NCBI RefSeq assembly: GCF_016865425.1
Contig: NZ_AP023355.1
Location: 2,168,198-2,232,197 of the forward strand
Reading direction: 5' to 3'
Source of the DNA: Actinocatenispora thailandica
GTDB taxonomy: Bacteria; Actinomycetota; Actinomycetes; Mycobacteriales; Micromonosporaceae
DNA length: 64,000 nucleotides
A model generated the notes under the pieces. It made no database searches and was not told the DNA's origin. It saw nothing but the letters and a program-made list of their open reading frames with translations. The first letter of the stretch is position 1. Every line of letters begins with the position of its first letter. Positions 4,546 through 36,942 of the stretch are shown piece after piece. The position numbers and the translations under genes are program-made.

Positions 4546-5514
4546 TCACGCGGTGAGCAGCCGCAGCGTGGTCCAGGCGCCGACATGGATCCGATCGCCG
4601 TCGTGCAGCGGCACCGGGTGGTTCGCCGCGATCGGCTGGTCGGAGTCGTTGAGGTAGGTGCCGTTCGCGGAATCCAGGTCGACCACCGACCAGCCGTCGG
4701 CGCCGCGCACCAACATCGCGTGCGAGCGGGACACGCCCGGATCCTCGGGCGGGCCGGTCAGGTCGATCTGCGGTTCGATGCCGCGAGACCGGCTGGCCCG
4801 GCCGACCAGCACCTGATCGTGCTGCAGCGCGAACTGCCGCTCCGGGGCGAACTTCGGGAACTCCATGTGGTCCGCGTCCGGCCCGTTCATCGCCAGCACC
4901 CGCAGGTGGTAGTCGTGGTCGGCGCGCACCGCGAGGCGCCAGCGCGTCCCCGCCGGCGCATCGCCCGCCGTACTGGGGTGGCCGGCACCGCCCTCGCCGT
5001 CCCCGGCGGCGCCCTTGCCCTCCGCGACGTCGCCGGCGGCGGTACCCGCGCCGCCGGTGCCGGCGTCCTGCCCGCCGGCTGGACCGGTGTCGTTCGCACC
5101 CGCACCGGCACCGGTCGGGTGGGCGCCGCCGTTCCCGGCGTTCGGGCCGGCCGCGGCCCCGCCGCCGGCCGTGTCGCCGGCGTCGGTACCGCCGGAGCCG
5201 GCACCGCCACCGGCCTCCCCGCTGCCGGCACCGCCGCCACCGGCCTGCCCGCTGCCGGAATCGCCGGTAGCGGCGGCCGGCTGGTCGCCACGCAGGTCGG
5301 CCGCGACGAAGTCGTACCCGTCCACCTCGCAGAACCGCCCGGTGCGCGTCGCGCCGCACTGCGGGCAGGTCTGCGGGGCCGGCGCCGCCGACGCCTCGGT
5401 CGCCACCGCGGTCGCCCCGGCGGACGCCGCGGCACCACCGATCGCCGCACCACACTCGTCGCAGTAGTCGGCGTCGGTCGAGTTGTGTCCGTTCGGGCAG
5501 ATCGGCATGTGCAT
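4546..5514 (-). CDS. FHA domain protein with N-terminal zinc ribbons
   Basis: About 322 residues from ATG 5514, which has AAAGG 4 bases upstream; a second ATG lies two codons in. Order: a zinc ribbon (CPNGHNSTDADYCDECG, residues 5-21), a second CPQCG...FCEVDG pair near 42-60, a long Gly/Ala-rich linker, then a C-terminal FHA domain (about residues 215-320) with VGRASRSRG, VSRSHAML and SANGTYLND motifs that bind phosphothreonine. It is the last gene of the GlnX-GlnH-PknG operon, 58 bases after the VWA gene. The likely role is as a reader or substrate of PknG phosphorylation, as GarA is in mycobacteria, though the architecture differs from GarA. This role is inferred from motifs and linkage. 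Confidence 0.85.
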   Translation of the reverse strand: MHMPICPNGHNSTDADYCDECGAAIGGAAASAGATAVATEASAAPAPQTCPQCGATRTGRFCEVDGYDFVAADLRGDQPAAATGDSGSGQAGGGGAGSGEAGGGAGSGGTDAGDTAGGGAAAGPNAGNGGAHPTGAGAGANDTGPAGGQDAGTGGAGTAAGDVAEGKGAAGDGEGGAGHPSTAGDAPAGTRWRLAVRADHDYHLRVLAMNGPDADHMEFPKFAPERQFALQHDQVLVGRASRSRGIEPQIDLTGPPEDPGVSRSHAMLVRGADGWSVVDLDSANGTYLNDSDQPIAANHPVPLHDGDRIHVGAWTTLRLLTA

Positions 5515-5572
5515 GCAGCCTTTCGAATCCGTACCGGCCGGTCGTGCCGGCGCCGCCACCGGGCGACCGCCG

Positions 5573-6859
5573 TCAGGACCGCTTGACCCGGATCGTCTTG
5601 GTGGATCGGACGTTGGTCAGCTCGGCGTCCAGCGACGACGCGTCCCGGCGCAGCCGGACCGTACCGGTCGCCGCGTCCTCGACGTCGACCACCCGACGCA
5701 GCAGCTTCGCGGTCTGCTCGTGCCCGGACTCGTCGGCCAGCTGCACCGCCCGGCCGAGCTTCGCGGTCGCGGTGGCGTCGTCGCCGGACTCTCGTGCCTC
5801 CAGGCCCTGCTGGATCACCTCGGCCAGCTCCGCCTGCCCGGTGTAGTGCGCCACCCGGTCGTTGATCTGGGTGGACAGCGCGTCGTCCTCGGTCCACCGG
5901 GCGAGCACCAGCGACTGCGCGATCACGTTGTCGTCGGAGACCAGGCTGACCCGGGCGGCGAGCCGCTCCTCGCCGAGCGTGCCCGGCGGCACCTGCACCG
6001 AGACGTGGTAGTCGCGGCTCTCCGCGCCCCAGGCGCCGGTCGGGTATTCGCCGATCCGGTCGCTCACCGGGACCCGGCGCCCGGTCAGCTCCTCCACCTG
6101 CGGGAAGACCTGCTTGACGAACCTGATCGTGGACCCGGCCGGGGTCCACAACCGCAGCTTCACGTCCGCGACCGACTTGCCCATCGCCTGCTCGGTCATC
6201 GCCCGGAACGCGGCCGGCAGCTCGGCCGGCTCCTCCAGCCCGTCCGCGCTGCCCAACAGGGCGGACGCGATGGTGCGCAGCTCGCTGGCCGCCCAGTCCT
6301 CGCCGACCCCGCGGCAGTCGCAGCTGAACCGGCCCTCGCACTCGGCCAGCACCTGCCGAAGCGCCTCCGGCGTCTCGTGCTGGTTTCGCCCGTCGGTGAG
6401 CATGATGCCGTGCTTGACCTGCGCCGGAACGTCGGCGAACAGCCTGTTCGCCAGCGCCAGCCAGCTGCCCATCGCGGTCCCGCCGCTCGGGGTCAGGCCG
6501 GAGATGGCCCGCTTCGCCGCCGCCCGGGTCTCGGCCGAGGCGGCGACCATGCCGTGGCTCGGGTAGACCTGCTCGGCCCGGCTGCGGCCGGCGATCACCG
6601 CGAACAGCACGCCGTCGCGCAGCGTGTCGACCGCGACGCCAGTGGCCTTGATCGCCTCCATCATCCGGCTGCGCGGGTAACCCATCGAACCCGAGCAGTC
6701 GATCATGATGGCCTCGGCCGCGCTCGGCGTACCGGTCGGAGCCGGCGCCGCGCCGCCCTCGCCGGCGGTCACCGTGATCACCGCGTCGACGGTCTCCGCG
6801 CCAGCGGCGAGATAGGGGTTCTGGTACACCTCGGCGGTGAAGCCGGACTGCGGGCTCAC
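5573..6859 (-). CDS. von Willebrand factor A domain protein
   Basis: 428 residues from a GTG at 6859. This start shares a 4-base GTGA overlap with the stop of the PP2C gene and has GAAGGGAG upstream. A complete MIDAS metal-binding motif is visible: DCSGS near residue 50, the threonine in SGGTAMGSW, and LTDGRNQHE. The C-terminal half continues as a beta-rich region and an alpha-helical tail with no membrane segment or signal peptide, so it is cytosolic. VWA proteins usually act as scaffolds in multiprotein complexes. Tight coupling to the PP2C and PknG genes suggests an assembly role in this signalling system, which is an inference. Confidence 0.88.
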   Translation of the reverse strand: MSPQSGFTAEVYQNPYLAAGAETVDAVITVTAGEGGAAPAPTGTPSAAEAIMIDCSGSMGYPRSRMMEAIKATGVAVDTLRDGVLFAVIAGRSRAEQVYPSHGMVAASAETRAAAKRAISGLTPSGGTAMGSWLALANRLFADVPAQVKHGIMLTDGRNQHETPEALRQVLAECEGRFSCDCRGVGEDWAASELRTIASALLGSADGLEEPAELPAAFRAMTEQAMGKSVADVKLRLWTPAGSTIRFVKQVFPQVEELTGRRVPVSDRIGEYPTGAWGAESRDYHVSVQVPPGTLGEERLAARVSLVSDDNVIAQSLVLARWTEDDALSTQINDRVAHYTGQAELAEVIQQGLEARESGDDATATAKLGRAVQLADESGHEQTAKLLRRVVDVEDAATGTVRLRRDASSLDAELTNVRSTKTIRVKRS

Positions 6860-7872
6860 TGAGCGCTCCCTTCGGCCGGTGCCGCCGGCGGGTACGGCAC
6901 GACCACGACGGTGATGTTGTCGACGCCGCCGGCGTCCAGCGCCAGCTGGGTCAGCTGGCGGGCCACCGCGAGGGGTGGCCCGGTCGGGGTGGCCGACGCC
7001 AACGCCTCCGGCGCCGAACGGTAGCGGGACAGCCCGTCGCTGCACACGATCAGCCGTCCCGGACCCTCCGGCGTGAACGTCAGCACCTTCGGCGGGCCGT
7101 CGTCGGCGTCGACCCCGATCCAGCGCACCAGCGCACCCGAGTGCGGCTGGGCGCGGGCCTCGTCGGCGGGCATCCCGGACGCGATCAGCTCGTTCGCCAG
7201 CGAGTCGTCCACCGTCAGCTGGCGCGGCACGGCGCCGTCGGGCAGCCAGTACGCCCGGCTGTCGCCGACCCAACCGACGGTGATCGCGCCGGCTGCCACC
7301 ACCGCGGCGACGAAGGTACAGCTCGGCGGGTTGCCCTGGTCCGGCCCGGCGACCGCGGCGACGGCCTCCCGGGCGGCGTGCACCGACCGGCCGATCGCCC
7401 GCTCGGGATGCGAACCCTCGGTCAGCGCGGTCCGCAGCACCGGCAACGCGGCGTCGACCGCGGCATGCGAGGCGGCGTCGCCGCGCGACGACGAGGACAC
7501 CCCATCGCACACCGCGACCAGCGCGGTGCCCGGCAGGCCACCGAGAGCGAAGGCGTCCTCGTTGCGCTCGTGCCGGTGCCCGATGTCGCTCACCCCGGCG
7601 ACCAGGCCGAGGTCGAACTCGCTGTGGTCCGGGCCGGTCGGCCCGCGCTGGCCGCACTGCTCGCAGTACCCGTCCGGGGTGAACGCGGTGTGCCCACACG
7701 CCTCGCACCGTTGCGGCGCGGTGGACGACGACACCCACTCGACCGCGAGTTGTGGCGCCGGTACGCCGTGCAGCGGCGTGCCGCACGCCTCGCAGAACCG
7801 GAACCCGGCGGACGCGGGCGCCCCGCAGGCCGGGCAGTCGATCGTCGGCGCCATGGCCGGATTGCCTACCAC
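6856..7872 (-). CDS. PP2C-family serine/threonine phosphatase with zinc ribbons
   Basis: 338 residues from GTG 7872, chosen because AGGAGG lies 4 bases upstream; the next ATG (7854) is too far from it. Two N-terminal zinc ribbons (CPACGAP...FCEACG and CEACGHTAFTPDGYCEQCG, residues about 10-65) precede a PP2C domain. That domain has all usual metal-site motifs: RNEDAFAL, VCDGVSSSSRGD, WVGDSRAY, CSDGLSRY and GGVDNITVVVV. It should remove phosphate from Ser/Thr residues, likely opposing PknG encoded just upstream (8 bases between genes). It overlaps the VWA gene by 4 bases. The second ribbon closely copies the ribbon style in the PknG N-terminus. Confidence 0.92.
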   Translation of the reverse strand: MVGNPAMAPTIDCPACGAPASAGFRFCEACGTPLHGVPAPQLAVEWVSSSTAPQRCEACGHTAFTPDGYCEQCGQRGPTGPDHSEFDLGLVAGVSDIGHRHERNEDAFALGGLPGTALVAVCDGVSSSSRGDAASHAAVDAALPVLRTALTEGSHPERAIGRSVHAAREAVAAVAGPDQGNPPSCTFVAAVVAAGAITVGWVGDSRAYWLPDGAVPRQLTVDDSLANELIASGMPADEARAQPHSGALVRWIGVDADDGPPKVLTFTPEGPGRLIVCSDGLSRYRSAPEALASATPTGPPLAVARQLTQLALDAGGVDNITVVVVPYPPAAPAEGSAQ

Positions 7873-7880
7873 GTGTCCTC

Positions 7881-10568
7881 CTAGACGAGCGTCCTCGGCC
7901 GGACCGCGTTCGCGCGGTCGACCAGCGCGTAGCGCGCGAGCGGGGTGCGTTCCAGACTGGCCAGGGCACGGTAGCCGGCCTCCAGGCCGAGCCGCAGCTC
8001 GCGCTCCACCAGCCGCCGACCGAGCACGGTGCCCGAGGCCTGCCGCGGCGGACGCCCGGGCGTGCTGCGAGGTGCGGCGTCGGCCGGCACACCCAGCCAC
8101 TCCAACGCCGCGACGAAGACCTCCACCGACAGCTGCGCGTGCGTACCGGTGTCCAGCCCGAGCTTCTCCAGCCGGGCCGCGGCGTCGACCAGGTCGGTCT
8201 CGGCCCACGCGCCGGCGGTCCGGTCCAGGCGGGCCCGGATCGCGGCGATCTGCGCCCGGGTGTGCCGGCTGGACGAGTCCGGCACCTCGTCCAGCACCGC
8301 GATCGCGCCCTGCCGGTCGCGGGCGGCGAGCAGCAGCCGGGACACCCCGAACGCGGCGCTGACGTACCCGTGGTCGACCCGCCAGACCCGGGCGTACCGG
8401 GCCAGTGCCAGGTCGGTGTGACCGGACAGCTCCGCGGCCACCGCCTCGGCCAGCAGCGCCGCCGGCTCGCCCGGCAGCGCCGCCGCCACCGCCTCGAACG
8501 CGCCGAGCGCCTCCCGGGGCGCCCCGGCGGCGAGGCCGAGCAGACCACGATGCCAACCGTGCCGCCAGTCCGCGTCCGGGGTGTCCAGCCGGCGCAACTC
8601 GGCTTGGGCCGCCGGCACGTCACCGGTCTCGATCAGCGCCCGGATCACCCGGTACGCCACCTCGACGGTGCGCGCCGGCGCCTGCCGCATCGCCTGGATC
8701 GCCTCGGCCGGCGCGGCGGCGTCGACGGTGGCGAGGAACGCCGCCGCCGGGTCGGCCGGATCCACCAGCGGCAGCGGGAGCGCGGCCACCACTTCCCGCC
8801 CGTCCAGCCGGGCGCCACCGGCAGCCGCCGGGCTGGTGGACACGTCGCCGGCGCCGGTCCCGAACGGCTGGCGCTCCGCGGTGAACAGCGTCGACATCGA
8901 CGGTCGGGGTATCCCGTCCGCTGCCGACAGCACCTCCCGCAGCACGCCGAGCAACTGGTCGGCCATCTCCGCCGCGGAGGCGAACCGCCGCTCCGGCTCC
9001 GGGTGGGTGGCCCGGACCAGCAGCCGGTGGAACGACGGCTCCTGCGCGAACAGCGGGATCTCGGCCGGCGACGGCAGCGAGGTGGCGTACCTGCTGGAGA
9101 AGCCGGTGAAGGTGAAACTGAGCACCGCCAGCGCCCGGCCCACCGTGTACAGGTCGGACTCCACCGACGGGCCGCGGGTGGCCACGTCCGGGGCCTGATA
9201 GCCCGGGGTGCCGTAGATGGCGCCGTCCGGATCGTCCAGCCGGCGCACCGCACCCAGGTCGATCAGTTTCAGCTGCTCCTCGGCCTGGATCACGTTGTCC
9301 GGCTTGAAGTCGCAGAACACCAGCCCGCGACCGTGCAGGTAGCCCAGCGCCGGCAGCACCTCCAGCCCGTACGCGAGGACCTGCGGCAGCGGCAGCGGGG
9401 CGCGCTGCCCGGCGGCGTCGCGGTGATCCAGCGCCAGGTCCTTCAGCGACTGGCCGCCCACGTACTCCATCACGATGTAGCCGATCAGCTCACCGGTCTT
9501 GGGGTCCGGGTGCCGGGCGAAGTCGTGGATCTTGACGATGTTCGGGTGGTCGACCTCCACCAGGAACCGCCGCTCGGCGACCGCGGACTCCATCGCGTCC
9601 GGGTCGCCGGTGTTGATCAGGCCCTTGAGCACCACCCAGCGGTCCGCGCCGCCCTCCGACACGTGCCGGTCGCGGGCCAGGTAGATCCAGCCGAGCCCGC
9701 CGTAGGCCAGGCAGCCGAGGATCTCGTACCGGTTGTCGACCACCTCGCCGGCGGACAGGCCCGGGAGGAACGAGAACTCGGTACCGCACTGCGGGCAGAA
9801 CCCCTCGGCCCGACCCGGCTGGCCATCCCGCGAGCGGCCGACCGGCTGGTCGCACTTGCCGCAGTAGCGGCGCGACTCCGACACCTTCGGGTCGGCCATC
9901 ACGGCGGTGGTCGGATCGCGCAGCGGCACCGGCGGTACCTCGACCAGGCCGGCACCCAGCCCACCGCGCGCGGTGGCCCGGCTGCGGCTGCTGCGGGTAC
10001 CGGTGCCGGAGGCGCCGCCGAGGCCGGCTCCGGTGCGACCGGAGAAACCGGCGGTCGCACCGGTCGGCCGCCAACCGCCGGTCATCGCGCCGGTCGGCAC
10101 GCTCGGGTCGCCCGGCAACGGCGGCGACACCGGAGCTCCGGGCAGCCCGCCACCTGCGGCCGGTGGCCCGGAGGTCGGACGTGCCGGGCCGGGCACCGAG
10201 GCCGGGGGAGCGGCGGCCTTCGATCCGCACTGGTCGCAGTAGCCGTCCGGGGCGTAGTGGCCGGCGCAGCCCGGCTGCTGGCAGCTCGCGCCGGCCGGCC
10301 AACCGGTCGGCGCGGCAGCACCGGGACCGCCGGCGCCCGGGACGGTCCCGGCGGCCGGCGGCGCGCCAACGGACGGCGCCGGGTTGCGCTGGCTCGGCGG
10401 CCGGGCGGCGGCCTTCGACCCGCACTGGTCGCAGTAGCCGTCCGGGGCGTACTGGCCGGAGCAGCCCGGCTGCTGGCACGGCGCGGCACTCGTGCGGGCC
10501 CCTTCGCCGGTACCGGCACCAGGCACGAAGGCGCCCTCCCCAGGATTCGCCCGCTGGCGCTCGCTCAT
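7881..10568 (-). CDS. pknG: PknG-type serine/threonine protein kinase
   Basis: 895 residues. Order: two near-identical Cys modules, each CQQPGC(S/A)G(Q/H)YAPDGYCDQCG (about residues 30-49 and 94-113); a low-complexity linker; a rubredoxin-like CGKC...CPQCG pair (about 236-262); a kinase domain (about 275-530) with AYGGLGWIYLARD, the lysine in VVLKGL, CDFKPDN catalytic loop, IDLGAVR and GTPGYQAPD; then a TPR-like helical domain to the end. This is the soluble PknG architecture, known in mycobacteria to control glutamate metabolism via an FHA protein. Upstream GlnX and GlnH genes support the identity. The ATG overlaps the stop of a 44-codon ORF (ATGA). The duplicated N-terminal Cys modules are unusual for PknG. 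Confidence 0.93.
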   Translation of the reverse strand: MSERQRANPGEGAFVPGAGTGEGARTSAAPCQQPGCSGQYAPDGYCDQCGSKAAARPPSQRNPAPSVGAPPAAGTVPGAGGPGAAAPTGWPAGASCQQPGCAGHYAPDGYCDQCGSKAAAPPASVPGPARPTSGPPAAGGGLPGAPVSPPLPGDPSVPTGAMTGGWRPTGATAGFSGRTGAGLGGASGTGTRSSRSRATARGGLGAGLVEVPPVPLRDPTTAVMADPKVSESRRYCGKCDQPVGRSRDGQPGRAEGFCPQCGTEFSFLPGLSAGEVVDNRYEILGCLAYGGLGWIYLARDRHVSEGGADRWVVLKGLINTGDPDAMESAVAERRFLVEVDHPNIVKIHDFARHPDPKTGELIGYIVMEYVGGQSLKDLALDHRDAAGQRAPLPLPQVLAYGLEVLPALGYLHGRGLVFCDFKPDNVIQAEEQLKLIDLGAVRRLDDPDGAIYGTPGYQAPDVATRGPSVESDLYTVGRALAVLSFTFTGFSSRYATSLPSPAEIPLFAQEPSFHRLLVRATHPEPERRFASAAEMADQLLGVLREVLSAADGIPRPSMSTLFTAERQPFGTGAGDVSTSPAAAGGARLDGREVVAALPLPLVDPADPAAAFLATVDAAAPAEAIQAMRQAPARTVEVAYRVIRALIETGDVPAAQAELRRLDTPDADWRHGWHRGLLGLAAGAPREALGAFEAVAAALPGEPAALLAEAVAAELSGHTDLALARYARVWRVDHGYVSAAFGVSRLLLAARDRQGAIAVLDEVPDSSSRHTRAQIAAIRARLDRTAGAWAETDLVDAAARLEKLGLDTGTHAQLSVEVFVAALEWLGVPADAAPRSTPGRPPRQASGTVLGRRLVERELRLGLEAGYRALASLERTPLARYALVDRANAVRPRTLV

Positions 10569-10699
10569 GGCCTGTCCTCCATCGTCGGGGCGCCGACGAG
10601 ACGCCGAGCCGTGCGATGCCCACGGCGTGCCCGCCGCCGCGTGCTCCGCGGGTACCGAGCCGCGCCGGGTCCGTGGTCCGCTCGTTGGCGCTCGCTCAT
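10565..10699 (-). CDS. Possible 44-residue coupled micro-ORF before pknG
   Basis: This short ORF begins at an ATG that overlaps the stop of the helical-protein gene (ATGA, 10699-10696) and ends at a TGA that overlaps the pknG ATG (10568-10565). It therefore bridges the two genes without a gap. Its first residues, MSERQRA, are identical to those of PknG, and 15 bases around both start codons match, so it may be a duplicated start-region element. The product is very arginine-rich. It could be a real leader peptide for translational coupling or only a by-product of the repeat. I do not recognise the product. Confidence 0.4.
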   Translation of the reverse strand: MSERQRADHGPGAARYPRSTRRRARRGHRTARRLVGAPTMEDRP

Positions 10700-11919
10700 G
10701 CCGAGCCCTCCCTCTGCCGTGCCAGCTCGGACAGCGCCTGCTGGTAGCCGTACACGGCGCGGGTCGCCGCCGGCAGGTCGCACGGCGCGGTGTAGAGCAG
10801 CCGCTCGGCAGCGCCGTAGCGGCGGGCCACCTCGGGGTCCTCCAACCGGCCCAGGGCGGCCGCCTTCGCCCGGTAGGCGGTGAGCCGGCCGCGCAGCTCC
10901 TCGCGCCGGGCGAGCAACCCGTCCGCCGCGCCGTGCAGCTCCCGCGCCCGGTCGGCGGCCGCGGCGATCTCGCGCTCGGTCGCGGCCACCGCGTCGGCGA
11001 GGGCCGGCCAGGCCGCGCCCCGGTGCAGCTCGTCCAGGTTGGCCAGCCGACCGCGCAGGCGTTCCGCCGCGGCCGGCACCGGCGGCAGGCCCGGATCGGC
11101 GATCTTCGCCGCCGTCGCCCGGTACGCCGCCGCGGCCGCGTGCTCCGCCTCGGCCAGCGCGGTCAGCGCGTCGGTCCAGGCCGCCCGGCGGCCGGCATAG
11201 TCGTCGCGCAGCGCGACCAGCCCGGACAGCCGGGACCGGGCCGCCGCCGCGGCGGCGTCGAGCCGGCCGAGCCGGGCGGTCACCGCCGCCGTCGGCGTAC
11301 CGTCCGGCGCCCCGGCCAGCGGGTCGCCGAGCGCCTGGCCGCGGACCGCGTCCAGCTCGTCGGTCAGCGGCCGGACCAGGTCGGTCGCCCCGAACTCGGT
11401 GCCCAGGGTGGCGACCGCGTCCACCGCGTCCGCGGTCGGGGACAGCAGGTCGGTCAGCGCGGTCAGCGCGCCCTGCACCGCGGCCAGCCGGTTGCCGGCC
11501 GCCTCGGCGTCCGCCAGCACCATCGGGATCAGGTCGACCAGGCACAGCCGGCGGGCGACCGGGCCGCCGGTACCGTCGGCGGGCAGTCCGGCCTCGTCCA
11601 GCGCCACCATCGGCTCGCGCAGCAGCGCGGTCAGCTCTGCCAGGTCGTCGTCGGTGGGCCGGCCGTGTCTCGCCCGCGCCGCCCGGGCGGCCTCCAGCAG
11701 GTCGCCGGCGACGCTGAAGTGCGCCCACAGCACGCTGACCCGCTGGGGCAGATCGGCGAGCCGCTCCGCGGTCGCGCCGGTCGCGCCGCCGGCCCGCAGC
11801 CAACGCAGCGCCGGATGCGAGTCCAGCGCATACATGGCGGCGGCGAGCCGGTCGTACTCCGCGCCGATCGCGGTGAGCCGCTGGTCGGCCTCCTCGCGCC
11901 GCAGTGGTGCCGTGGCCAT
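10696..11919 (-). CDS. Helical (coiled-coil-like) protein in the pknG operon, unknown
   Basis: 407 residues from ATG 11919, 5 bases after the glnH stop; an upstream reading would overlap glnH. The protein is almost wholly Ala/Leu/Arg/Glu-rich with long heptad-like helices and no signal peptide, membrane segment or cysteine cluster, so it is probably a cytosolic elongated helical protein. No enzymatic motif is visible. Its place between glnH and pknG suggests an adaptor linking the sensor to the kinase, or a substrate. This gene is not part of the three-gene mycobacterial glnX-glnH-pknG set as I know it. Confidence 0.75.
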   Translation of the reverse strand: MATAPLRREEADQRLTAIGAEYDRLAAAMYALDSHPALRWLRAGGATGATAERLADLPQRVSVLWAHFSVAGDLLEAARAARARHGRPTDDDLAELTALLREPMVALDEAGLPADGTGGPVARRLCLVDLIPMVLADAEAAGNRLAAVQGALTALTDLLSPTADAVDAVATLGTEFGATDLVRPLTDELDAVRGQALGDPLAGAPDGTPTAAVTARLGRLDAAAAAARSRLSGLVALRDDYAGRRAAWTDALTALAEAEHAAAAAYRATAAKIADPGLPPVPAAAERLRGRLANLDELHRGAAWPALADAVAATEREIAAAADRARELHGAADGLLARREELRGRLTAYRAKAAALGRLEDPEVARRYGAAERLLYTAPCDLPAATRAVYGYQQALSELARQREGSA

Positions 11920-11924
11920 CGCGG

Positions 11925-12923
11925 TCAGTCCCGGTACTGGGCGGCCGGCGGTTTCGGCGCCGGTCCGAGCACCGTCAACCACTGGTCGTAGAGCTTCTTC
12001 CAGGTGCCGTCGCCGCGGATCTTCGCCAGCACGCCGTTGACGAACCGGACCAGGTCGACGTCGTCGAGGTTCGCCGCGATCCCGTACGGCTCGTCGGTGA
12101 ACTTGGGGCCGATCACCTTCGTGTTCGGGTCCTGCTTCTTCAGTCCGGCGAGGATCGTGTCGTCGGTGGAGATGGCGGCGACCTGCCGCTGCTGCAGCAT
12201 CACCAGGCAGTCGGTCCAGTCGTCGACCGCGACCGGAACCGGCTTCGCCGGGTCGGCCGCGATCGCCCGGATGGACGTGGACCCCTTCGCCGCGCAGACC
12301 TTCTTGCCGCCCAGATCACCGAGCTTGCTCGCGGTCGACCCGGACGGCACCAGCACCCGCTGCCCGGCGTCGAAGTAGACCGAGGAGAACGCCACCTGCT
12401 TCCACCGCTCGCAGTTGACGGTCATCACGTCGGCCACCAGATCGACCTGGTGCTTCCGCAGCACCGGGATCCGCTGCGCGGAGGTGATCACCTTGAACTG
12501 GATCTTGTCCGGATCGCCGAAGATCGCCCGCGCCACCTCGCGCAGCATGTCGATGTCGAAGCCCTGCAGGTCGTTGTTCTGGTCGCGGAAGCCGAACAGG
12601 TAGGTGTTCTGGTCGACACCGACGACCAGCCGGCCGCGCTTCCTGATCCGGGACACCGCCGGCCCGTGCAGCATGTCGGCCGGCGACCCGTGCGGCCGGT
12701 AGCTGTCGGCCGCACAGGAGGTGTCCTGCGAGTCGGCGCCCGGGATCTTCGCCGGGTCCTGCACCCCGACCGGCCGCGGCGGCGCCGCCGGCGTGCCGGC
12801 ATCGGGCAGCGTGGACGCCCCGCAGCCGGCCACCACCAGCAGCGCGGCCAGCGCAACCCCCGCCGCCAGAACCCCGCGCACGCGTCGCCGCACCGGTGTG
12901 CCCTCCCGCATCGTCTGCCTCAT
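11925..12923 (-). CDS. glnH: GlnH-like amino-acid-binding lipoprotein
   Basis: 332 residues from ATG 12923, which shares ATGA with the stop of glnX. A lipoprotein signal ends in LLVVAGC, with lipidated Cys at about residue 34. The rest is a family 3 solute-binding domain: RGRLVVGVDQNTYLFGFRD, LQGFDIDMLREVARAIFG, VDLVADVMTVNCERW and KWKKLYDQW-like C-terminus. In mycobacteria GlnH binds aspartate/glutamate-type amino acids and signals through GlnX to PknG, rather than only feeding an ABC transporter. No ABC permease or ATPase is nearby here, which fits a sensor role. Confidence 0.88.
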   Translation of the reverse strand: MRQTMREGTPVRRRVRGVLAAGVALAALLVVAGCGASTLPDAGTPAAPPRPVGVQDPAKIPGADSQDTSCAADSYRPHGSPADMLHGPAVSRIRKRGRLVVGVDQNTYLFGFRDQNNDLQGFDIDMLREVARAIFGDPDKIQFKVITSAQRIPVLRKHQVDLVADVMTVNCERWKQVAFSSVYFDAGQRVLVPSGSTASKLGDLGGKKVCAAKGSTSIRAIAADPAKPVPVAVDDWTDCLVMLQQRQVAAISTDDTILAGLKKQDPNTKVIGPKFTDEPYGIAANLDDVDLVRFVNGVLAKIRGDGTWKKLYDQWLTVLGPAPKPPAAQYRD

Positions 12924-14245
12924 CGGTACTCCGCGACCCGGCGCTGCAGGCCGACCGTGGTGCCGAGCACGCACACCGCGGCCAGCAGGCCGAGTCCGAT
13001 CGCGGCCCCGGTCTGGCTCGACGCGGCGGCGCTCGCCTGGTCGGTGAACCGACCGTTGGCGGCCTCGATCGCGCTCGCGGTGTGCCGGTCGAGGTTGCCG
13101 AACGCATCCGCGGCGCTGCCCGCACCGGAGCCGATCGCGACCTGCACCGCCTCCGGGTACCGGCCGCCGTCGTCGAGCGAGCGCACCTTGGCGTGCGCAG
13201 CCTGCCAGTCGCGGACATCCCTGCGGACCGTGTCGAGCTGGCGGCGCTGCGCGTCGTTCGCACCGCTGCGGGCGGCGCCGATCAGGCCGCCGCTGCCGTT
13301 CGTTCCGACCAGATCGGTCATCCGCTGCCGGAAGTCCTTCTCGAAGGCGGCGCCGTTGCCGCGGGCCACCAGGGTCAGCGACTCGTCGGCGCGCGCCTGC
13401 AACGCGGTCAACCGGATCTGCGCGAACGCCTCGACCTGCGCCGAACCGGTGTCCCGGGCCGAGCCGAGGTGGCTGGCCAGCGCACCCCAGGAGGCGGTCA
13501 GCCAGAGCAGCGACACCACCGCCGCGGCGCAGCCGACCAGCAGCCCGCGGTTGAACACCCGGTTGGTCCGGCGGCTGAGGTGGACCTGCCCGACCATCAG
13601 CCCGGCCAGCAGCAGCAGGCCGACCGGGATCGCCACCCAGGGGAACCCGGCCGCCGCCGACCGGTCGTCGGTCAGCCGCGCGGTCTCCGCCTGGTACAGC
13701 GACTTCGCCGCCGGCAGCAGCTTGTCGCGCATCAGGCCGGAGGCCTCGCGCAGGTACGCGGCGCCGAGCGGGATGCCGAGCCGGTTGTACACCCGGGCGG
13801 TTTCCACCAGCCCGGTGTAGACCGGCAGCTGGCTGGTCAACTGCTGCACCACCCGGGCGTTCGCGCCGCCGGAGTTGCTCGCGGTCGCGAGCGCCTTGCC
13901 GGCTTCGGCGATGTCCTGCTGGTAGCGCCGGGCGGCGCTGGCCGACTCGACCCCGCCGGTCAGGAAGGACGACGCCGCCGTCGCGTCCGCGTCGGACAAC
14001 GAGCGGTAGAGCTGCTGGGCCTGCACGGTGAGCGGGCCCGAATGCGAGCGCACCTCGTCGAGCCGACCGCCGCGCTGCTGCACCCCGACCACCATCGCGG
14101 TACCGAACGCGAGCCCGAGCACGACGAGCAGGGCGAGCAGGATGGTCAACCGGCCCGGCGTGGTGCGGGCCAGGGCGCCGAGCCCGGGCCTGGTCGGGTC
14201 GACGGCGGGCGCGGGCGGCGTCGGCGCGGTCGGGGCGAGCGTCAT
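12920..14245 (-). CDS. glnX: GlnX-like membrane sensor protein
   Basis: 441 residues. Four membrane helices are visible: near residues 32-55, 205-225, 235-255 and 410-430. The segments between helices 1-2 and 3-4 are helical, likely extracytoplasmic four-helix-bundle sensor domains (residues about 60-200 and 260-405). Position directly before GlnH and PknG and the topology match GlnX of the mycobacterial glutamate-sensing system, where it contacts GlnH outside and passes the signal to PknG. The start ATG at 14245 has a weak ribosome site. It is the first gene of the operon, so the promoter should lie in 14246-14621. Assignment rests on linkage and topology, as the sequence family is variable. 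Confidence 0.8.
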   Translation of the reverse strand: MTLAPTAPTPPAPAVDPTRPGLGALARTTPGRLTILLALLVVLGLAFGTAMVVGVQQRGGRLDEVRSHSGPLTVQAQQLYRSLSDADATAASSFLTGGVESASAARRYQQDIAEAGKALATASNSGGANARVVQQLTSQLPVYTGLVETARVYNRLGIPLGAAYLREASGLMRDKLLPAAKSLYQAETARLTDDRSAAAGFPWVAIPVGLLLLAGLMVGQVHLSRRTNRVFNRGLLVGCAAAVVSLLWLTASWGALASHLGSARDTGSAQVEAFAQIRLTALQARADESLTLVARGNGAAFEKDFRQRMTDLVGTNGSGGLIGAARSGANDAQRRQLDTVRRDVRDWQAAHAKVRSLDDGGRYPEAVQVAIGSGAGSAADAFGNLDRHTASAIEAANGRFTDQASAAASSQTGAAIGLGLLAAVCVLGTTVGLQRRVAEYR

Positions 14246-14621
14246 CGCGGCACCGGCCCGTCGGCCCGGGCCGTGCGCCGACCGGTGGGGTGGGCACAGA
14301 CCCTGTCCCGGCCCGTTCGGCCGGTGCCCGACGTGCTGCCCAGCATCGATGCCCTCCGTCGTGTTTTCGGGCCAACATAGCCGGTCGTGTCAACCGGCGC
14401 GATCGCGCCGCCGTGCCCCCGGCGGTACCGAGCTCGGCCGGGTCCGGGCCGGTCGGTGCCGATGTCCGGCATGTCCCGCCGGGGTGGGACGCGGCCGGCC
14501 CGGCTACCGCCGGAGTAGGGGGTCGGTTCTGGCTCCGCCGCGGGACGTGCCGCCCGCCTTCCCGCTCCTACCGTCCCGTCGTCACTGCCCGGACCAGCGG
14601 TAACAAGGGGGCGAAGCGGTC
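14246..14621. promoter_or_regulatory. Divergent intergenic region upstream of glnX and a methyltransferase gene
   Basis: This 376-base region separates the first gene of the glnX-pknG operon from a rightward methyltransferase gene. It should hold both promoters. I see TTGACA-like bases on the minus strand near 14385-14395, but no correctly spaced -10 box, so I do not name a promoter. No supported gene lies here. Confidence 0.4.
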
Positions 14622-33583: not shown

Positions 33584-34772
33584 CGGACGTCCTCCTGCCG
33601 CGGCACGGTGAGGTTGACCGCGGTACCCCGGCCGGGCGCGGTGTCGATCGACAGGCTGCCGCCGACCTCGTCGGCGCGCGCCCGCATTCCGCCGATGCCC
33701 AGCCCGGTACCGCTGGTGCCGCCGAGCGGCCGGGCCGGGTCGAAGCCGACCCCGTCGTCGACCACGTCGAGGCTGACCGCGTCCGGCAGGTACGTGAGGG
33801 TCAGCTCGACGCGGCCCGCCGCGGCGTGCGCCCGGGCGTTCGCCAGCGCCTCCTGCGCGGTGCGCAGCAGCGTGACCGCGACCGGGGTGGGCAGCGGGGC
33901 CGGCGCCCCCTCGACGTGCAGCCGGGTACGGTCGCCGGGCTGGTCGGCCACGATGCGGCGGAGCGCGTCGGGCAGCGAGGCGCCGGCGAGTTCGGCCGGG
34001 GTCAGGTCGCGCACCAACCGCCGGGTGTCGGCGAGGGCGCCGCGGGCCGCCCCGATCGCCGTGTCGAGCTGGTCGACCAGCGGCTCCGGTACGGCCGGGC
34101 CGCCCCGGTGACCGCGGACTGGCGGGCGGTGCGCAGCACCAGCACGATGCTGGTCAGGCTCTGGGTGATGGTGTCGTGGATCTCCCGGGCCAGCCGCTCC
34201 CGTTCGGCGAGGACCCCGGCGTCCCGCTGCGAGGCGGCGAGCCGGTCCTGCGCGGCGGTCAGCTCGTCGAGCAGCTCGGCCCGCTGGCGTAGCTGGTCGG
34301 CGAGGTCCCGGTAGACGACCGTGATCATGACCGCGACCAGCGCTCCGACGACCGGACCGACCACCGCGGCGGCGTCCCAGCGGTCCCGGTCGGCGGCGAT
34401 CACCGCGATCGTGCCGGCGGTCAGCGCGGCCACCACCGGCACCGAGGCGGCCAGCGGGAGCAGCTGGGTGGCGAGCAGGAACAGCGGGAACGCCAGCCAG
34501 ACGAAGCTCGCCGAGCCGAGCGCGAGCGCCGCGCACCCGGCGACCAGTACGGCGAGCCAGCCGATCGCGAGCCCCCGGGTGCCGCGGCGCCGGGCCAGCA
34601 CCACACCGGCCGCGTACCAGCCGGCGACCAGCACCGTGCCGGCGAGCAGGACCGGCCAGCCCGGCTCCCCGGCGGTACCGGCGGCGCCGAGCGCCAGCAG
34701 CCCGAGGAACAGGACGTGTTCGCTGCGGCGCAGCAGCAGCAACGCCATCGAGCGGGACGGGCGGACAGCCAT
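33580..34772 (-). pseudogene. NarL-type sensor histidine kinase, frameshifted
   Basis: The N-terminal part (from about 34772, ATG; a GTG at 34784 is also possible) has membrane helices and the HisKA_3 motif [20 protein letters not shown]. The C-terminal part (to 33580) has the HATPase domain with EALANARAHA, VDDGVGFDPA and GTGLGIGGMRARADEVGG. The two parts are in different frames. The switch lies near 34098-34110, where the minus strand reads ACCGGGGCGGCCC. Adding one G to the run of four restores a continuous [17 protein letters not shown] reading. So either one base is missing from the sequence or the gene is recently broken. It otherwise forms a tight pair with the response regulator. Confidence 0.85.
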
Positions 34773-34863
34773 GGTGCTGCTCACGCTAGCCGGCGCTGCC
34801 CGGCGGCCGGGACCGTTCGCCCGCCCCCGGGCGGGCGCGACGGGCGCGTCGCCGGCCCGAGCC

Positions 34864-36942
34864 TCAGCCATTGGCGGCGGCGACCAGCTCGGGTTCGCGG
34901 TCCGGGCGGTGCGGCCGGGACGGCCACCAGATCCGGTCGCCGACCAGTGCGAACACCGCCGGTACCACGATCGTCCGGACCAGCAGGGTGTCGATCAGGA
35001 CGCCGAGGCCGACGATCAGGCCGAGCTGCGCGAGCGTGGTCAGCGGCAGCACGCCGAGCGCGGCGAACACCGCCGCCAGCACCACGCCGGCGCTGGTGAT
35101 CACCCCGCCGGTGCGGCCGATCGCGGCGATCACGCCGGCCCGGGTGCCCCGCGCGGCGGACTCCTGCCGGGTGCGGTGTGCCAGGAAGATCGTGTAGTCG
35201 ATGCCCAGCGCCACCAGGAACAGGAACGCGACCAGCGGGACGTTCACGTCCAGCGCGGGGAACCCGAACAGCCGAGTACCGACGAACGTACCGGCGCCGA
35301 TCGCGGCGATCGCCGACGCCAGGTTGACGGCCACCAGCAGCACCGGCGCGACCAGCGAGCGGAGCAGCAGTACCAGCAGTACCAGGGCGACCGCGAGGAT
35401 CAGCGGCGCGATCGTGCGCAGGTCGTGGTGGAACGCGTCCCGCACGTCCAGGTCCTGCGCGGTCTGGCCGCCCACCTTCGCCTGCGCGCCCGGCACCGCG
35501 TGCACCGCGGCGCGCAGCCGCCGTACGGTGTCCAGGCTGGCGGCGCTGCCCGGCTGGGCGGCGTCGACGACGGTCAGCTTGACCAGCCCGTCCGGCGAGC
35601 TGCCGGCCGGCCGTACCTGCACGCCGGGGAGTTGCCGAGCCGCCGCGGTCACCGCCGGTGCCGCGCCGGCGCGGGCCACCACGACCAGCGGCGCGGACTC
35701 GCCGGCGGGGAAGTGCCGTGCCAGTACCCGCAGCCCGGTGGCGGACTGGGACGAGACGCGGAACTGCTCCAGCTGGCTGAGCCCCACCCGGGTGCCGAGC
35801 AGCCCGCCGGCCAGGATCGCGAGGACGACCAGGGAGGCGGCCACCACCAGGGCGGGCCGCCGGGTGACGCCGCCGGCCGTCCGCCGCCAGAACCCGCCCG
35901 CCCGCGCCGGCGCGGCGCCGGGGTGCGGGACGAACGGCCAGAACAGCCGTCGGCCGCAGACCGCGAGCGCGGCGGGCAGCAGGACCAGTACGAACAGCAG
36001 CGCGATGGCGAGGCCGACCGCGGCGGCGACGCCGAGCCCGCGGGTGTTGGGCATCGTCGCGAGCAGCAGTGTCAGCAGCGCGGCGACCACGGTGACGTTG
36101 CTGGCGAGGATCGCCGGGCCGGTGCCCCGGACGGCGGCGGCGAGTGCCGTCCGGTGGTCGGCGCTGCGGTACAGCTCCTCGCGGTAGCGGGAAATCAGCA
36201 GCAGCGCGTAGTTGGTGCCGGCGCCGAACACCAGCACGCTGATGATGCCGGCGTCGAACTGCAGGTCGGCGGCGGCGCCGAGAGCGGCGGTGACACGGGC
36301 GGCCACCTGGTCGGCGAGGCCGACCACCGCCAGCGGTACCAGCCAGAGGATCGGTGACCGGTAGGTGACCAGCAGCAGCACCGCGACGATCCCGATCGTG
36401 ACGGCGAGCAGGGTGACGTTCGCGCCGTCGAAGGCCGCGGCGATGTCGGCGCCGAATGCCGGTCCGCCGGTGATCTGGACGCTCAGCTGGTCCGGCACGA
36501 CGCGGTGCGCGGTGCCGCGGAGCCGCGCGATGGTGTCGCCGATCTCGGCGTTCGACCGGTCGGCGTCCACCGGCACGTTCACCACGGCCGCCTGCCGGTC
36601 CGCGGACCTGATCGGCCCGGACGCGTGCTGGCCGACCTGGCGGCCCAGCGCGGTACCGAGCCGGTCGGCGGCGGCCAGGTCGGCGCCGGTGAGCCGGCCG
36701 CCGTCGGACCGGCTGACGACCACGACCACCGGGGCGAGTTCGTGCTGCGGGAACCGCTGCTCGAGCTGGCGTACCTGCGCGGACTCGGAACCGGTCGGCA
36801 GCGCCTGCGCGGCGCCGGGCGGCGTCGCGCCGGCCAGCGCGCCGCTCACTGCGGCGGCCGCGAGCAGCCCGAACACCATGACCAGCCACCGGCTCCGGCG
36901 GCCCGTCAGTACCGCGGCGAGCCGCCGCCACGCCTCCGTCAT
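34864..36942 (-). CDS. MMPL-family (RND-type) transporter
   Basis: 692 residues from ATG 36942; upstream in-frame sequence to 37065 is non-coding in style. Two halves each have a membrane helix, a large extracytoplasmic loop and five or six further helices, the MMPL pattern. Motifs include [19 protein letters not shown] and [19 protein letters not shown] in the first half, and [20 protein letters not shown] in the second; GxxxDY residues of the proton relay are visible in both (GAGTNY/GIDYT). MMPL proteins export lipids or drugs by proton motive force. It is followed by a kinase/regulator pair 91 bases later and may be in one operon with it. Confidence 0.9.

Follow-up and report, generated by a model that had tools for sequence, protein, structure and literature searches.

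The GlnX-GlnH-PknG operon of Actinocatenispora thailandica (family Micromonosporaceae) lies in a stretch of 64,000 nucleotides, here called the window, and carries four further genes besides the sensor pair and the kinase. It is a minus-strand run of eight open reading frames (ORFs) from 14245 to 4546, with neighbors overlapping by 4 bases or separated by gaps of at most 58 bases, just as an earlier note on this DNA had described it. Seven of the ORFs are real genes, transcribed in the order GlnX-GlnH-HEL-PknG-PP2C-VWA-FHA: GlnX, a membrane sensor of 441 residues (12920..14245); GlnH, an amino-acid-binding lipoprotein of 332 residues (11925..12923); HEL, an all-helical protein of no named family with 407 residues (10696..11919); the kinase PknG of 895 residues (7881..10568); a PP2C phosphatase with an N-terminal double zinc ribbon (6856..7854); an ArnB-like VWA protein (5573..6859); and an ArnA-like FHA protein (4546..5514). 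GlnX and GlnH overlap by 4 bases, as do PP2C and VWA. The remaining gaps are 5 bases from GlnH to HEL (an alternative GTG start of HEL lies at 11982), 26 bases from PknG to PP2C (8 with a GTG start at 7872), and 58 bases from VWA to FHA.

The eighth ORF is a micro-ORF of 44 codons on the same strand (10565..10699) that overlaps HEL and PknG by 4 bases each. Its start region repeats the pknG start, with 16 of 18 bases identical. The close relative L064 has a 27-codon ORF at this position that likewise overlaps both neighbors by 4 bases but starts with another sequence; in L061, a more distant congener, the micro-ORF is missing and HEL overlaps PknG directly. The micro-ORF, counted as an operon component in the earlier note, is therefore dropped as such: it is probably an inserted leader coupling the translation of HEL and pknG—neither a conserved gene nor a part of the pathway. 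HEL and PknG overlap by 1 to 20 bases in 40 of 52 loci (exactly 4 bases in 37), GlnX and GlnH in 49 of 67 loci, and PP2C and VWA in 29 of 44 loci, with start codons chosen by script. Because such overlaps are common and the same gene order is found in other genomes, the cluster is not due to chance.

GlnX scores 428.6 bits against the GlnX family model NF058618 (cut-off 250) and stays below the narrower equivalog NF041460 (221.6 of 780 bits). GlnH features an SBP_bac_3 domain and, in its translation, the lipobox-like stretch LVVAGCG; its best solved relative is GlnH of Mycobacterium tuberculosis (6h2t, E 3.5e-88). In the alignment, the equivalents of R147, R169, W232, and D250 are retained, and those of T162 and K161 are changed to V and D, a difference from the mycobacterial pathway that may go in hand with another ligand preference.

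HEL matched no Pfam or NCBIfam family, and of 46 relatives at most 8 hit Pfam at E≤0.01, through scattered coiled-coil models. The AlphaFold2 model is nearly all helix, with a predicted local distance difference test score (pLDDT) of 96.5 and a predicted template modeling score (pTM) of 0.82, and matched no PDB fold at E≤0.001. The best PDB sequence match (E 0.0024) was read as coiled-coil noise, and a profile comparison with the PknG alignment showed no similarity, so that HEL was rejected as a PknG relative. Invariant residues lie mostly in the C-terminal part, as judged by an alignment of 45 sequences from 52 HEL proteins plus the window. One variant clade joins this part to a Trypsin_2 domain (4/4 scanned). 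At L067, L073, L077, and L081, an N-terminal Trypsin_2 domain sits on HEL relatives adjoining PknG-VWA, with GlnX after VWA. We know of no archaeal counterpart of HEL, no search having been made for one. HEL is a putative adaptor.

PknG features rubredoxin, kinase, and TPR domains over cut-off (PF16919, PF00069, PF16918) and matches M. tuberculosis PknG (2pzi) at E 4e-152; K315, D420, N425, and D437 are invariant in 19/19 sequences (18 relatives plus the window). The same three genes in the same order, and the same PknG domains, are found in Mycobacterium and Corynebacterium, except that Corynebacterium PknG is without rubredoxin. Unlike those operons, the one described here has four additional conserved genes and two extra N-terminal zinc knuckles in PknG ahead of the rubredoxin, read from the translation at 10419..10478 and 10224..10283 (minus strand), the latter aligning with the knuckle of the relatives. 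By pattern, an extra N-terminal knuckle occurs in 44/60 family loci, in 7/8 Streptomyces-like and further-family loci, and in 0/12 Mycobacteriaceae-like loci, where "-like" taxon labels, here and below, are inferred. A defense label for PknG was considered and rejected: 29 PADLOC models matched, best PD-T4-6 and mad6, and were read as generic kinase matches. The phosphatase features PP2C_2 (PF13672) and a double zinc ribbon (PF12773), both over cut-off, with D100, D117, D273, and D312 invariant in 20/20 sequences (19 relatives plus the window); the ribbon pattern is present in 53 of 54 PP2C proteins. As judged by these patterns, similar zinc modules are common to PknG, PP2C, and FHA of one operon.

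The VWA protein contains the domains VWA_3 (PF13768) and VWA_3_C (PF18571), and its metal-ion-dependent adhesion site (MIDAS) residues D54, S56, S58, T128, and D156 are invariant in 23/23 sequences (22 relatives plus the window). The predicted model (pLDDT 93, pTM 0.90) finds as its top Foldseek match the structure 4fx5 of caci_2163 from Catenulispora acidiphila (E 2e-61, template modeling (TM) score 0.93), which is also the best sequence match, with 52% identity over the whole chain. Excerpts of PMC6509490 note that 4fx5 and vWA2, a paralogue of ArnB, resemble each other in structure. The next match is chain A of the ArnAB complex 8s05 (E 6e-20, TM 0.66 by query and 0.74 by target), and the ArnB paralogue 5a8j is matched as well (E 1e-17). 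To both 8s05 and 5a8j the model aligns over the whole chain, i.e., the VWA domain, a split β-sandwich, and a C-terminal helical domain. In addition, the loop between modeled strands 1 and 2 is conserved (consensus QNEYLPxG, N14 at ≥90%).

The FHA protein features two zinc-ribbon-like stretches, a long linker, and an FHA domain (PF00498, over the Pfam cut-off) whose residues G238, R239, S262, H265, N284, G285, and T286 are invariant in 20/20 sequences (19 relatives plus the window). Among the 20 aligned, the Cys columns 6, 18, 50, 53, and 62 are occupied at ≥90% and column 21 is invariant. The FHA profile matches ArnA (8s05_C, E 1.6e-11; 5a8i, E 1.1e-10) second among PDB sequences, and GarA and OdhI rank below ArnA (2.6e-9 and weaker).

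ArnA and ArnB form a phosphorylation switch by which archaea respond to starvation. In Sulfolobus, ArnA combines a zinc finger with an FHA domain, and ArnB consists of a VWA domain, an inserted β-sandwich, and a C-terminal helical bundle (excerpts of PMC6509490, PMC12852372, and PMC5300886). The ArnA zinc finger contacts unphosphorylated ArnB at the β1–β2 loop and the C-terminal domain; the kinase ArnC phosphorylates the ArnB C-terminus, and the FHA domain then binds the phosphothreonine there (PMC12852372, in excerpt). ArnC carries TPR motifs ahead of its kinase domain, according to the available part of PMC5300886. The operon shares with Sulfolobus ArnA-ArnB (8s05, 5a8j, 5a8i) the adjacent genes, the three-domain VWA protein next to a zinc-finger FHA protein, the intact MIDAS, a Hanks kinase with TPR (ArnC there, PknG here), and a nutrient input. 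It differs in being bacterial and in encoding sensor, kinase, and phosphatase together. The scaffold role given to the VWA protein in the earlier note is thereby refined: by fold match and FHA profile, VWA and FHA together resemble ArnB and ArnA.

The VWA protein ends in a threonine tail, RSTKTIRV, encoded at 5585..5608 (minus strand), which is conserved and a candidate phosphosite. A tail resembling RSTKTVRV is found by pattern in 36 of 48 FHA-bearing loci and in 75 of 80 named loci, the latter being the best 80 of 540 relatives from the VWA search, which alone supplied the named loci. Its location differs from the helix pair of ArnB. At VWA loci without an FHA gene the tail is absent in 9/10, and the C-terminus is instead a zinc ribbon like the second ribbon of the FHA protein (8/10 by pattern; 9/10 by eye, which adds L067). 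These zinc-ribbon-ended proteins suggest that both partners have fused naturally, in keeping with the contact between the ArnA zinc finger and ArnB.

Conservation was assessed at 60 of 62 PknG places in the source family, the window included (G041 and G063 left out; the 62 exclude one split and one weak match), with gene content determined by profile search and gene order. The full order on one strand occurs in 32 of these 60 loci. The others are GlnX-GlnH-PknG-PP2C-FHA (7), GlnX-GlnH-HEL-PknG-VWA (4), HEL-PknG-VWA-GlnX (4), PknG-VWA-FHA-GlnX-GlnH (3), GlnX-GlnH-PknG-PP2C (2), loci ended by a contig (4), and singletons (4). Counted by gene, GlnX accompanies PknG most consistently (57/60), versus 50 for VWA; GlnH is found in 51, FHA in 47, PP2C in 46, and HEL in 44. 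Outside the family, a phylum draw contributed 20 PknG loci. The full order is present in 7/7 fetched Streptomyces-like loci (7 of 11 genomes), and one further-family locus reads HEL-PknG-PP2C-VWA-FHA with GlnX and GlnH on the opposite strand. In 12/12 Mycobacteriaceae-like loci, from 10 of 14 genomes with PknG, all four extra genes are absent (10 GlnX-GlnH-PknG, 2 PknG alone). Over all 80 PknG loci, GlnX is found in 75 and GlnH in 69. The proposal that sensor, kinase, eraser, and reader form one genetic unit is borne out by this comparison of gene order: HEL, PP2C, VWA, and FHA are conserved beside pknG. The expansion turned out not to be peculiar to the source genome; it is a common form in the family and in Streptomyces-like loci. 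According to excerpts of PMC6069109, Actinomycetales and other Actinobacteria that have PknG conserve a three-gene GlnX-GlnH-PknG operon.

The best 80 of 540 VWA relatives come mostly from Streptomyces and in addition from Plantactinospora, Phytohabitans, Actinoallomurus, Actinomadura, Streptantibioticus, Actinacidiphila, and other actinobacteria; the full order is found in 66 of these loci. Four loci (three Actinoallomurus, one Actinomadura) have the order HEL-PknG-PP2C-VWA-FHA-GlnX-GlnH; of the other ten, nine lie near contig ends and one (Phytohabitans maris) is GlnX-PknG-VWA. PknG is present in 78 of the 80, and the other two contigs end before PknG would be reached.

Of 101 family genomes, 50 carry PknG (PF16918), and VWA and HEL go with it. 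VWA (E≤1e-20) occurs in 44/50 PknG-bearing versus 1/51 PknG-less genomes (Fisher p 7e-21, ignoring kinship), and HEL (E≤1e-6) in 41/50 versus 2/51 (Fisher p 5e-17, likewise ignoring kinship). The lone VWA exception, G067 (L259), is a PknG-less PP2C-VWA-FHA remnant with a split PP2C and a VWA protein without its middle; the set possibly degenerates after PknG has been lost. The HEL exceptions are G005, on a contig fragment, and G016, a weak match. Within the phylum draw, 13/396 genomes contain VWA (E≤1e-50), each of which also has a PknG_TPR match; of the Mycobacteriaceae-like genomes with PknG, 0/14 contain it. Three Streptomyces-like genomes (G293, G228, G123) contain a second, more distant PknG_TPR match adjoining a second, more distant VWA gene. 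Among complete loci, i.e., those not truncated by contig ends, 50 have both HEL and VWA and none has HEL without VWA. The PknG tree offers four independent pairs for covariation of HEL with VWA and two for that of tail with FHA, too few for a test in either case. On the same tree—unrooted, built by a quick method, and with long branches—VWA presence changes four times. Because the mycobacterial clade lies among VWA-bearing lineages, the short mycobacterial form suggests loss of the extra genes.

The classical output of PknG is GarA. Thr21 of GarA, which we take to be the first threonine of the ETTS motif, falls on that residue by count in the mycobacterial sequence L228. PknG acts on Thr21 of GarA and on Thr14 of OdhI, according to excerpts of PMC8546545. 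The earlier note had placed GarA elsewhere in the genome, and indeed the source genome encodes four GarA-like proteins outside the window at E≤1e-25, one of them over the curated cut-off; the threonine targeted by PknG is absent from all family members read. Two congeners also have four such paralogues (L220–L223 in the source genome), and a single copy was found in 17 of the 21 family genomes searched. Altogether, GarA-like proteins were found in 33/33 genomes searched, with or without PknG, 24 of them over the curated cut-off. The motif was read in 30 best matches of the 33 genomes and in three further copies of the source genome. In 21/21 family genomes (17 with PknG, 4 without), ETTS is replaced by DVTS, DVTA, or DATA, the first threonine being lost and the second retained; the motif of the source genome is DVTS or similar. 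Since the loss is seen with and without PknG, it is a family trait, and the classical output looks altered in this family. ETTS is retained in 6/6 Mycobacteriaceae-like and 3/3 Streptomyces-like sequences. GarA of three Streptomyces-like genomes (L253, L254, L256) has at its N-terminus a stretch resembling a zinc ribbon, akin to those of the operon FHA protein.

We read the locus, with slightly better than even confidence, as an amino-acid-sensing phospho-signaling operon with an ArnAB-like VWA-FHA switch as the output of PknG. By analogy with mycobacteria, GlnH would bind an amino acid outside the membrane and signal via GlnX to PknG. HEL, its translation coupled to that of PknG, would serve as the adaptor recruiting PknG to a putative complex. 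As long as the VWA protein is unphosphorylated, the zinc ribbon would tether the FHA protein to it loosely; phosphorylation of C-terminal VWA threonines would let the FHA domain clamp on tightly, as ArnA does on ArnB. PknG would thus drive the switch, and PP2C would reset it. We infer all phosphorylation and binding steps of this scheme by analogy. A wider claim is more doubtful, and we put it forward tentatively: that setting an ArnAB-type VWA-FHA switch is the ancestral and main job of actinobacterial PknG, with the mycobacterial GarA pathway as its stripped form. On that view, bacteria and archaea would report their nutrient state by a common logic of TPR kinase, FHA, and VWA.

Several observations weigh against the switch as PknG output. 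PknG is missing from 51 of the 101 family genomes, and the system is hence no fixed core. Seven loci have PP2C and FHA but neither VWA nor HEL. Two genomes carry a lone extra VWA gene, and none of the other six operon genes was found in the 17-kb stretches around these. The likeness in sequence is narrower than the likeness in fold: the profile match between VWA and ArnB is confined to the VWA domain (E 3.1e-9), and the same profile scores mussel PTMP1 (E 3.2e-17) and human ITIH4 (E 8.7e-12) above ArnB. The FHA profile matches a plant FHA protein (E 1.4e-12) better than ArnA, and its match to ArnA spans the FHA domain alone. The double zinc ribbon of the FHA protein scores 17.7 bits where Pfam requires 27.3, and searching FHA proteins with a simple knuckle pattern picks up such ribbons in just 17/47 and 1/8. 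The tail pattern is absent in 12 of the 48 VWA proteins of FHA-bearing loci and was defined after the sequences had been inspected; a narrower pattern gives 25/58, and the widened one gives 37/58 (36 with FHA, 1 without). The fusion to a zinc ribbon maps to just one event on the PknG tree; it is therefore no more than suggestive, and tail and FHA do not vary independently. The phosphatase is PP2C here but PP2A in the archaeal system. According to the available part of PMC12852372, VWA architectures of this kind elsewhere act mostly outside multi-phosphorylation processes; the operon context argues against such a role in actinobacteria. Finally, GarA may still be a PknG target in the Streptomyces-like genus because ETTS is kept there alongside the full operon.

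This last point leads to the reading in which GarA, acting on 2-oxoglutarate dehydrogenase, is still the main output and the four extra genes just tune PknG: PP2C would reset the kinase, and FHA, VWA, and HEL would keep it at the membrane. The ubiquity of GarA-like proteins among the genomes searched and the intact motif of Streptomyces-like GarA speak for it, as does the fact that three genes suffice in mycobacteria (excerpts of PMC6069109). It does not explain well that the target threonine is replaced throughout the family, that 44 of 50 PknG-bearing family genomes also have VWA, or that no ETTS motif occurs in the 13 operon FHA proteins inspected, and we consider it unlikely, though deserving of real weight.

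Less probable still is a relation of PknG-PP2C-VWA-FHA to the kinase-PP2C-vWA neighborhoods of conflict systems, with GlnX and GlnH as secondary additions. The TerY-P defense triad includes VWA and phosphatase components; the VWA protein of the operon matched no PADLOC model at E≤0.01, and PP2C gave one weak PADLOC match (E 7.7e-4). In some GAP1-N2 systems, an actinobacterial kinase that frequently bears a zinc ribbon adjoins PP2C and a standalone vWA (PMC7159879, in excerpt), much as here, and the patchy presence of PknG and the HEL-Trypsin_2 fusion would suit such an origin. The operon departs from these neighborhoods by pairing PknG with GlnX, GlnH, and FHA, and a Pfam scan of six flanking ORFs found no GAP1-N2 component; the gene order is maintained across genera, and GlnX and GlnH stand at 75 and 69 of 80 PknG loci. 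Very improbable, finally, is that VWA-FHA forms structural or trafficking machinery with a Sec23/24-like core in which phosphorylation is incidental: Sec23/24 chains are among the fold matches, but they score lower than ArnAB (query-based TM about 0.5), and PknG stands at all those named VWA loci whose contigs extend far enough.

The likeliest place of the operon promoter, judged by position only, is the divergent intergenic region 14246..14621, in which a crude scan did not find a sigma-70 consensus. Separate promoters of the distal genes were sought with the same scan: no promoter-like site was found across the whole operon stretch, which agrees with a single unit and is weak evidence in a GC-rich genome. 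A promoter and terminator scan gave no signal exceeding shuffled controls. Elsewhere in the window, positions 34001–36000 have an AT skew of 0.241, strong relative to the remaining window.

The PknG work found concerns mycobacteria and corynebacteria, with the path from kinase to output running through GarA and OdhI; in the open-licence literature searched, as far as its excerpts reach, no link between the PknG operon and VWA, FHA, or ArnAB genes was found. If PknG indeed sets an ArnAB-like switch in many other actinobacteria, an output of the pathway has been overlooked in genera that produce antibiotics, and a likely role emerges for the structure 4fx5. Archaeal ArnAB would gain a bacterial counterpart with sensor, kinase, and phosphatase encoded alongside, and what ArnAB-type switches control could be tested in Streptomyces, which is amenable to genetics.

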